From assembly GCA_949300145.1 (NCBI GenBank), contig CASGDA010000004.1:62001-126000 (forward strand): DNA of 64,000 bases, given 5' to 3'. The notes under the pieces were generated by a model, which was given only the letters and a program-made list of their open reading frames with translations, ran no database searches and was not told where the DNA came from. Source of the stretch: an uncultured Treponema sp. Its GTDB lineage: Bacteria > Spirochaetota > Spirochaetia > Treponematales > Treponemataceae. The first letter of the stretch is position 1. Every line of letters starts with the position of its first letter. The translations under genes were made by a program, and so were the position numbers. This document shows positions 6,179 through 9,816 of the stretch, piece after piece.

Positions 6179-7129
6179 ATGAATTTACTTGCACAAAACT
6201 ATTATCCGGATGAAGCGTTCCACGAAACAAAGCTTCACGGCAGCATCGGGTTTCCCTATACAGTGTACCGCGGCAACATCCCCGGCTACATGCGCTCCTA
6301 TCCGCTGCACTGGCACGATGAGATGGAGATTGTCTTTGCGGTCAAGGGAAGCGCGTCAATCAGGGCAGAAAACCGGGAATATGTAATCGCCGGCGGCGAC
6401 ATGGCGCTCATCACCCCGCAGACGGTCCACGCCATCTCGCGGCACAACACCGACACGCTGGAATATTTCACGATTCTATTTAAATTTAAACTTTTGTGCC
6501 CGGACGAAAAGGATGAAATCTTCCAATCCTTTTTCCTGCCGCTGCAGACCGGCGGCATAAATATACCGGTTCTAATCCCGAAAGACAGCGGCCTTAACAG
6601 GGAAATACGTCCGTATCTCGCAGACTTAATTGAAAACAGAAAAACCGCCGGTTTCAGCATGAAAATAAAGAGCGACCTTTTCGCCGTCATGCATCTTCTG
6701 TATAAAAACGCGGAGCACACGGAATCAAACCGGATATCCGCCGGAAAATCCTATGACCGGCTGAAAAAAATAATTCTCTTTGTCCGGCAGAACTACATGA
6801 ATGCAATCACCGTCCGGGAAGCCGCGGAACACTGCGCGGTCTCGGAGAGCCATTTTATGAAACTCTTCCGTGATATGGCTGGATGCAGTTTCATCAGTTA
6901 CGTAAAGAACTTCCGGCTGGAGACCGTCGCACGTCTGCTGTCGGAAACCGACAGGAAAATCACCGGCATCGCGGCGGAGTGCGGATTCTCCTCAGCATCA
7001 TATTTCACACGGGCTTTTGAACAGAAGTACGGCTGCCCGCCTTCCCGTTTCAGGGAAGAGCGCAGAAACGCTTCCGGCGGGACTGCGGAAGGACAGGAAC
7101 CTGCTTCCAGTAAACAGGTCTCCCGGTAA
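6179..7129 (+). CDS. AraC family transcriptional regulator with cupin sensor domain
   Basis: This 316-residue regulator has an N-terminal cupin/AraC-binding domain (about 15-150; 'YPLHWHDEMEIVFAVKGSA' is the typical first cupin motif) and a C-terminal pair of helix-turn-helix units (about 190-290). The C-terminal unit has the signature 'ITGIAAECGFSSASYFTRAF', with 'KYGCPPSRFRE' following. Members bind a sugar in the cupin and activate neighbouring sugar genes. Divergence from the GH13 gene over a 45-base intergenic region makes that enzyme the natural target. The inducer is not known. Confidence 0.92.
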   Translation: MNLLAQNYYPDEAFHETKLHGSIGFPYTVYRGNIPGYMRSYPLHWHDEMEIVFAVKGSASIRAENREYVIAGGDMALITPQTVHAISRHNTDTLEYFTILFKFKLLCPDEKDEIFQSFFLPLQTGGINIPVLIPKDSGLNREIRPYLADLIENRKTAGFSMKIKSDLFAVMHLLYKNAEHTESNRISAGKSYDRLKKIILFVRQNYMNAITVREAAEHCAVSESHFMKLFRDMAGCSFISYVKNFRLETVARLLSETDRKITGIAAECGFSSASYFTRAFEQKYGCPPSRFREERRNASGGTAEGQEPASSKQVSR

Positions 7130-7152
7130 AAAAGGCTGCACAATGCAGCCTT
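7128..7152 (-). terminator. Intrinsic terminator of the phase-variable lipoprotein gene
   Basis: On the minus strand a 9-base-pair stem AAGGCTGCA/TGCAGCCTT with a 3-base loop is followed by six T. It lies about 20 bases past the lipoprotein stop codon, just beyond the convergent AraC stop. Confidence 0.8.
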
Positions 7153-7173: not shown

Positions 7174-8208
7174 TTAAAATTCGCTTTTACATTGCGGACA
7201 GGGACTTTCCACGGATCTCCGCAGCCCTTCAAGAACCTTGTTGAAATACCCTTCCTTTTCAAGATCCTCCCTAAGCGACCTGGGAACCGCCGATTCAAGC
7301 ATTGCAGGACAGCACGTCCACCACAGTTTATTAAATCTTAAATCTGGCTCCTTTTTTTCAGTACTCAAAAAATTAATATCTTCATTATTATTTATAGGTG
7401 TATCTCCGTCATTGTCGTTTGTAAATTGAATATCGATATCTTCTGCTGAACCCGCTTCATCAATCACAACCGACACAATCATTCCGTAGCAATTTTCGGG
7501 AAGCGGCGGATCCGTCCAGCGTTTTCCCCATATTTCCACAACGTATCCATTCGCCGTTCCATTCACATGAGCATTCAAACCCAAACCGGAGGAAGTTTCA
7601 AGAAGCTGCCTGCTGTTATTCCAGGGAACAAACCTGGGATTGTTCAATTCATTAATGAGGGTGTCCAGTACGCCTATCTGATATTGAACGGTCATTTGAT
7701 CAAAACCCGGAATTACATTTTCAATGGTGAATTCACTGCCGTCCCAGTCACCTTTCCGCAGACATACGAAGGTATCGTTCCCGTCTTTCATAACCCACAC
7801 AGAATCATGATCACTGAATTTATGAAGCGGTCCGGTGCGGGGGTTTTCTGTATTTATGCCCCATGTACTATCGGGAGGATTGTCGGTAAAGCCCGTAAAG
7901 TCTTCGTAAGAGTAACTTTTATTCTTGTATCTTAAGTCAATATTCAAACCCTGGGTAAGCCCGTCTGACTGCACAAGTTCTTTTACGCTCTGGGAGACTT
8001 GCGCAACCCTTTCATTGCCCGTACTCCCGGATTCCGATGTAAGAGAAATCGTCTGTGTTCCGATACCACGGAACCGGAAACTGTCCCCCGTATAATCAAA
8101 ATCTCCATTGGAACCGTCAGAACCGTTAGCGGCGTTGGAACAGGAAAAAAGAAAGCAGATAAAAACAAAACCCGCCGCCAAATAAGGCAAAGACTGTTTG
8201 CGCAGCAT
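7174..8208 (-). CDS. Putative phase-variable lipoprotein, function unknown
   Basis: This 344-residue protein has a lipoprotein signal peptide whose lipobox is LFSC with Cys at residue 23. ATG at 8208 is chosen because AAGGAGGT lies just upstream; the open frame to 8271 would begin inside the promoter. After the anchor comes a serine/glycine/aspartate-rich linker, then an acidic region without recognised domains. Near the C-terminus are a CysCys pair ('WWTCCPAM') and a terminal CPQC, which could bind metal or form disulfides. The promoter spacer contains twelve G, so expression is predicted to switch with tract length. A surface or periplasmic role is likely. I do not recognise the family. Confidence 0.75.
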   Translation of the reverse strand: MLRKQSLPYLAAGFVFICFLFSCSNAANGSDGSNGDFDYTGDSFRFRGIGTQTISLTSESGSTGNERVAQVSQSVKELVQSDGLTQGLNIDLRYKNKSYSYEDFTGFTDNPPDSTWGINTENPRTGPLHKFSDHDSVWVMKDGNDTFVCLRKGDWDGSEFTIENVIPGFDQMTVQYQIGVLDTLINELNNPRFVPWNNSRQLLETSSGLGLNAHVNGTANGYVVEIWGKRWTDPPLPENCYGMIVSVVIDEAGSAEDIDIQFTNDNDGDTPINNNEDINFLSTEKKEPDLRFNKLWWTCCPAMLESAVPRSLREDLEKEGYFNKVLEGLRRSVESPCPQCKSEF

Positions 8209-8239
8209 TGTACTGAACCTCCTTATCAGGAATTGGCTA

Positions 8240-8271
8240 ATTATACCCCCCCCCCCCATAAAATTTGTCAA
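8240..8271 (-). promoter_or_regulatory. Promoter with poly-G(12) spacer, predicted phase-variable
   Basis: On the minus strand a consensus TTGACA (8271-8266) and a consensus TATAAT (8245-8240) are separated by 20 bases, of which twelve are an uninterrupted G run (8257-8246). Optimal spacing is 17, which a G9 tract would give. The sequenced G12 state should be weak or off. An AAGGAGGT ribosome binding site and the ATG at 8208 follow. Confidence 0.85.
8246..8257. repeat. Homopolymer tract, C12 on plus / G12 on minus
   Basis: Twelve consecutive C on the plus strand form the longest mononucleotide run noticed in the window. It lies exactly between the -35 and -10 of the lipoprotein promoter. Runs of this length are prone to slipped-strand mispairing. 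Confidence 0.95.
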
Positions 8272-8511: not shown

Positions 8512-9816
8512 ATGGCAAGACGCACAGGACATGCTGACCTTCCGCTCCACACCGGAACGGTTCCCCGCTGGCTGGCGGACCGGATGCGGGATATGGGCAC
8601 GCTGATTATCGAATCGCTCCTCATCAACTCGGGGAAACGGGAAGTCCTCCGCAGGCTTGCGGATCCCCTCTGGTTCCAGTCGCTGGGCGCGGTGCTGGGA
8701 ATGGACTGGCATTCCTCCGGCATCACCACCAGCGTCCTGTACGCCCTCAAACGGGGAATCAATCCGCGGGCGAAGGAATTCGGACTGTGCGTTTGCGGCG
8801 GACGGGGCAGATATTCACGGAGGACGCCGGAGGAGCTCGCCTATCTGGGGGAACGCACCGGACTCGACGCGCCGTCCCTCATCCGGGCGAGCCGCCTCTG
8901 CGCGAAAACGGACAACACCGCGGTTCAGGACGGCTTCCAGCTGTACCAGCACAATTTCATCCTTTCGGATGACGGCGACTGGACCGTCGTCCAGCAGGGG
9001 ATGAATCCCGCGGCAAAAACCGCCCGGCGCTACCACTGGTGTTCGCAGAATCTGAAATCCTTTGTGGAGGAGCCGCATTCCGGCGTCACCGGGGAAAACC
9101 GGGGCCCCATCCTGAATCTGACGGACAAAGCCGCCTGCGGCACCCGTTCCGCGGTCCTCTCCCTCACCGGGGAAAGCCCGGAGCGGCTGATGCGGGAAAT
9201 CAAAGCCATCGCCCGGATTGCGGAAAACGGCACGCTCTTCCCGGCGGAAGACGGAGGCGCCGCCGACACGGGCAGCAAAAGCGATGGCACGGACGGATAC
9301 CCGCCGGAGCACGCCCTTCCCTGCGGATGCGGAACGCGCAACCTGTCGATGCCCGCCCGCCACAATATCACCGTGGCCGACATCGACCTGAAGCGTCTGG
9401 GCGGCGTCCTCGCCACGGCATACGAGGCACGGCCCGCCGACTTCGAGTCCCTGCTGCTCACCCCCGGACTGGGAGCGCGAACCATCCAGTCCCTGTGTCT
9501 GGTCAGCGAGGTGATTCACGGAACACCGTCCCGCTTCCGGGATCCCGCCCGGTTCAGCTTCGCCCACGGCGGAAAAGACGGACATCCGTTCCCCGTCCCT
9601 ACACGGATTTACGATGAAAGCATCCGCATTCTGAAGGACGCGATAGAAAAATCCAGGCTGGGCTATACCGACAAATCCGCCTGCATCCGGCGGCTCCATG
9701 AGACGGCCCTCCAGATAGAAGAAAACTGTTCGCCTGAAGCGGATTTCGCCACCGTCCTTGAGCGGGAAAAGCGGAACTCCGCCGCATGGGGCGGACGAAC
9801 CGTGGCAGACCCCTGA
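8512..9816 (+). CDS. DUF763 family protein
   Basis: This 434-residue protein matches the DUF763 family as I remember it. It has an N-terminal 'RRTGHADLPLHTGTVPRWLADRM', a central 'KTARRYHWCS' and a C-terminal 'LLTPGLGARTIQSLCLVSEV' resembling a helix-hairpin-helix, followed by 'FSFAHGGKDGHPFPVP'. A cysteine pair in 'LPCGCGTRN' could bind metal. The helix-hairpin-helix-like piece suggests DNA binding or nuclease activity, but no function is established to my knowledge. The gene is much more GC-rich than the origin-proximal genes, as is the convergent MmcQ gene. No ribosome binding site is evident; TATAAC ends 10 bases before the ATG. Confidence 0.75.
   Translation: MARRTGHADLPLHTGTVPRWLADRMRDMGTLIIESLLINSGKREVLRRLADPLWFQSLGAVLGMDWHSSGITTSVLYALKRGINPRAKEFGLCVCGGRGRYSRRTPEELAYLGERTGLDAPSLIRASRLCAKTDNTAVQDGFQLYQHNFILSDDGDWTVVQQGMNPAAKTARRYHWCSQNLKSFVEEPHSGVTGENRGPILNLTDKAACGTRSAVLSLTGESPERLMREIKAIARIAENGTLFPAEDGGAADTGSKSDGTDGYPPEHALPCGCGTRNLSMPARHNITVADIDLKRLGGVLATAYEARPADFESLLLTPGLGARTIQSLCLVSEVIHGTPSRFRDPARFSFAHGGKDGHPFPVPTRIYDESIRILKDAIEKSRLGYTDKSACIRRLHETALQIEENCSPEADFATVLEREKRNSAAWGGRTVADP

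Follow-up and report, generated by a model that had tools for sequence, protein, structure and literature searches.

The 64-kb window, by which we mean the whole stretch of DNA analysed here, belongs to a genome of 2.24 Mb in 20 contigs from a gut-type Treponema relative, an Avitreponema-type spirochaete. The region of interest contains an orphan lipoprotein gene on the minus strand, flanked by two genes on the plus strand, and presents the following features:

6179..7129, plus strand: AraC-family regulator, convergent flanking gene, whose Ca. Avitreponema avistercoris counterpart is 59% identical
7128..7150, minus strand: intrinsic terminator GGCTGCATTGTGCAGCC-TTTTTT (z -3.1), not listed by a simple scan
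7174..8208, minus strand: orphan lipoprotein of 344 aa, ATG at 8208, signal peptide with an LFSC lipobox at Cys23
8224-8218, minus strand: Shine-Dalgarno sequence AAGGAGG
8245-8240, minus strand: -10 hexamer TATAAT, exact consensus
8257-8246, minus strand: G12 homopolymer, directly adjoining the -10 hexamer
8265-8258, minus strand: aattttat, the non-G part of the spacer, which together with G12 makes a 20-bp spacer (8265-8246)
8271-8266, minus strand: -35 hexamer TTGACA, exact consensus
8512..9816, plus strand: conserved open reading frame, divergent flanking gene, presumably DUF763-like

The initial annotation had taken the gene for a lipoprotein, and this call is sound because AAGGAGG at 8224-8218 precedes the ATG at 8208 and is accompanied by MLRKQSLPYLAAGFVFICFLFSC; sequence scoring also detected a lipoprotein signal in the product, which may be an envelope or surface protein. 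The protein has no detectable relative in databases: no NCBIfam family matched it, the single Pfam match (PF22310, E 0.007) was below threshold, and no homologue was found in 273 other genomes of the family or in GTDB 220. Structure prediction from the single sequence did not yield a reliable model (mean pLDDT 39). The unit looks monocistronic, closed by a hairpin with a T tail. In the same gap of the congener Ca. Avitreponema avistercoris (G001), neither a lipoprotein gene nor a poly-G tract was found, and the AraC-family regulator and the conserved flanking gene adjoin within a few bases. Therefore, the lipoprotein, its promoter and its terminator form a lineage-specific cassette, which would reflect either a gain in the lineage of the window or a loss in the congener.

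With respect to the promoter, the exact TTGACA and TATAAT hexamers reported previously on the minus strand, separated by 20 bases of which twelve are G, were confirmed at 8271-8240. This is the only exact pair with a spacer of 14-22 in the window, where 0.04 would be expected from shuffled sequences, and the G12 tract is the only run of G or C of at least 7. The earlier statement that all the other strong promoters have spacers of 16-18 bases is inaccurate, given that the window holds no further exact promoter and that the one-mismatch candidates have spacers from 14 to 21. Genome-wide, 16 exact promoters were found, with spacers of 14 (2), 16 (1), 17 (4), 18 (4), 19 (1), 20 (3) and 22 (1), so that 17-18 is the mode.

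We propose, with a probability of roughly 0.8, that this promoter is a transcriptional phase-variation switch, the deposited form of which would be weakly active or off. Replication slippage would lengthen or shorten the G tract, and each change in the number of Gs would shift the distance between the -35 and the -10 of a sigma-70-type promoter by one base, moving the transcription of the lipoprotein between near-off and high. A homopolymer long enough to slip (at least 8) is present between recognizable hexamers, and the spacer equals 8 + n, so that G9 gives 17 bp, G10 gives 18 bp and the deposited G12 gives 20 bp, a few slips away from 17-18 bp. The promoter is thus predicted to be weak or off at G12 and on at about G9-G10. 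We infer both the slippage in this species and its on/off consequence. What makes this reading the most likely one is the recurrence of the layout before lipoprotein genes, in close to half of the family genomes sampled.

The genome of the window (G000) carries 20 tracts of at least eight Gs, with exact lengths of G8 (1), G9 (4), G10 (10), G11 (2), G12 (2) and G13 (1); thus 19 have at least nine Gs, the promoter G12 among them. The peak at G10 is a second hump of the length distribution, unlike the tail that chance would produce. Promoter-like spacers hold at least six of the tracts, namely the one of the window and those of C2, C18, C6, C16 and C17, the last three being counted as promoter-like even though their hexamers or spacing are less clear. 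The promoters of C2 (TTGACG-gaaataac-G10-a-TAAAAT) and C18 (TTGTCG-gaaataac-G13-TACAAT) have flanks that are almost base-for-base alike, whereas their downstream proteins are unrelated. The difference of three Gs between these sister promoters comes nearer than anything else in this genome to showing slippage directly. Relatives of the two downstream proteins (58% and 43% identical) are encoded in the congener G002 behind G10 spacers, the non-G parts of which are different.

Other G tracts of this genome lie inside coding regions and break the frame at the deposited length; these appear to be ordinary translational contingency loci. One of them, a G10 at L060:1596-1605 (G000:C6:13595-13604), is located right behind DPPY in the gene of an N6/N4 DNA methylase and leaves the frame broken, which makes this a candidate phase-variable methylase (phasevarion). 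In L059, L063, L064 and L055 (G000 C5, C10, C11 and C4), coding-region tracts of G9-G11 split, at the deposited length, an acyltransferase gene (PF01757), two genes without a Pfam match and a signal-peptide region.

The layout recurs widely in the family. Using the pattern TTGAC-N{1,14}-G8-N{0,3}-TANNAT, we found it in 89 of 195 family genomes; the reversed-pattern control gave 0/195, and the poly-C version was present in 8/195. In a sample of the phylum, a hand count of the match table gave 46/85 family genomes with the layout vs 21/307 others. Among the 146 sites listed, the G tract touches the -10 with no base between in 132; once longer abutting tracts are discounted, few sites have the tract nearer to the -35. 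Genome G067 has a whole series of near-identical promoters, TTGACTTTTGA-G12..G15-TATTAT, that are unlike in the number of Gs. A different layout was observed on several contigs of G013, in which the G tract directly follows the -35 (TTGAC-G9), with about 7-8 bases between it and the -10.

The genes downstream of these promoters were scored with a home-made lipoprotein rule. Out of 63 distinct genes from 15 genomes, 47 scored as lipoproteins, compared to 10 of 38 genes behind TTGACA-N17-TATAAT promoters in seven of the same 15 genomes (Fisher P 3e-6); with a strict lipobox, the counts were 37/63 and 3/38 (Fisher P 2e-7). It should be noted that this enrichment may be overestimated, as chance probably accounts for some of the N17 promoters used as controls. 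Among the exceptions that are not lipoproteins is Cas12a, in three genomes: L286:359-4324 (G181), L287:559-4524 (G196) and L288:758-4876 (G138), of about 1321, 1321 and 1372 aa. Their promoters read TTGACA-tttttat(a)-G9-tgt/ca-TATAAT with 19-bp spacers, and two of the three have a second -10-like site downstream. These Cas12a genes are candidates for phase variation, and we found no paper on a phase-variable Cas12a behind a poly-G promoter. A PD-(D/E)XK nuclease-like protein (PF14281), possibly a defence gene, is encoded at L116:572-1801 behind a promoter with a G14 spacer.

Another aspect to consider is whether the length of the tract is balanced by the rest of the spacer. The tract partly offsets the non-G part, since independence of the two would give the total about twice the variance observed. 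Because long spacers are cut off by the search pattern, the compensation was retested with truncation-aware swaps and with one value per genome; the permutation never reached the observed compensation, and the per-genome version gave P ~0.0005. Among the tracts of G11 or shorter alone, there was no negative correlation between tract length and remaining spacer, which indicates that the compensation arises mainly between lineages. Compensation is accordingly claimed here in a tempered form, on account of both the truncation and the lack of the effect among short tracts.

The total spacers of the 146 sites listed peak at 18-19 bp and not at 17, which counts against the proposed switch, as does the lack of a negative correlation among tracts of G11 or shorter. 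The arithmetic by which G9 and G10 were said to restore 17-18 bases is correct, although, with a peak at 18-19 bp, the active range may be G9-G11 instead of strictly G9-G10. Moreover, spacing alone does not account for the preference for G over C on the coding strand (89 vs 8 genomes) or for the contact with the -10. A G tract that touches the -10 could possibly supply the G of an extended -10 position. One may go further and suppose that the tract acts not by spacing but by DNA structure or by a direct contact beside the -10 (an extended -10 G or altered melting), for which the strand bias, the near-constant contact and the precedent of tprL, with a tract overlapping the -10, would speak. We consider this improbable as a full explanation, given that spacer totals are compensated between lineages and that TP0126 has its optimum at 17 nt (both T. 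pallidum precedents as summarised in PMC7864442); such an effect may act together with spacing rather than replace it.

Homopolymers are prone to error, so that 12 may not be the true number of Gs, and the tract could be a sequencing or assembly artefact or a tolerated homopolymer that switches nothing. The enrichment in promoter spacers of 89 genomes, single-contig genomes such as G067, G073 and G119 included, with a reversed control of zero, and the linkage to lipoproteins make this quite unlikely. The frame is also open from the TTG at 8271 through the tract at G12, as it would be if the tract lay within an N-terminal coding extension and translation were switched by frameshift; yet the signal peptide and the lipobox would then be buried, a perfect Shine-Dalgarno sequence stands 9 nt upstream of the ATG at 8208, and the -10 lies about 28-37 nt from the start codon in most family members. 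An extension of this kind is hardly credible. The transcriptional switch proposed initially is supported, at the level of sequence comparison, by the family-wide placement of the tracts, the compensation, the linkage to lipoproteins, the lengths of the sister promoters and the TP0126 precedent.

A broader and more tentative idea is that Treponemataceae possess a standard module, composed of TTGAC, a short AT-rich stretch and a coding-strand G tract touching the -10, with which the whole family would phase-vary many lipoproteins and also some defence genes. Unrelated genes of one genome would have this module in common, and its G strand would add more than spacing, for example a sigma contact beside the -10.

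Up to now, the switching of Treponema promoters by poly-G in the spacer was known for a few genes of T. pallidum. In the open-licence literature we found no paper describing the layout outside this species; within that literature, the family-wide scale and the lipoprotein bias may be new, and the orphan lipoprotein cassette is new. Nearly one in two of the family genomes sampled, most of them from uncultured treponemes, has the layout, and chiefly in front of lipoprotein genes. This suggests that the family as a whole, and not the syphilis agent alone, controls envelope lipoproteins stochastically as one of its basic traits. Tests of the switching would not require T. pallidum if cultivable members carrying such promoters were used.

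The precedents invoked by the initial annotation do exist, according to the summary in PMC7864442 on which this comparison draws. In tprE/G/J of T. pallidum, promoters are active only with eight or fewer Gs, and in vivo the tract of tprL ranges between 7 and 11 Gs; like our locus, both have a poly-G at the promoter, and there it varies in length, the genes encode surface proteins and shorter tracts are more active. The tprL tract, however, overlaps the -10, so that its mechanism is not one of spacing. A closely similar case is TP0126, an OmpW homologue with poly-G between the -35 and the -10, whose expression depends on tract length and whose transcription is best at 17 nt. It differs in being an OmpW-type outer-membrane protein of another genus and not a lipoprotein; in the window, set against it, both hexamers match the consensus and the tract directly abuts an exact TATAAT. 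In porA of Neisseria meningitidis, cited as the model of spacing control, a poly-G in the -35/-10 spacer likewise governs transcription, in an unrelated organism and gene. The position of our tract within the core spacer was described correctly but is not distinctive, as TP0126 and porA are built alike. The mechanism is already known from these two genes, and by the 8 + n arithmetic of its spacer the lipoprotein promoter of the window appears to fit their type.
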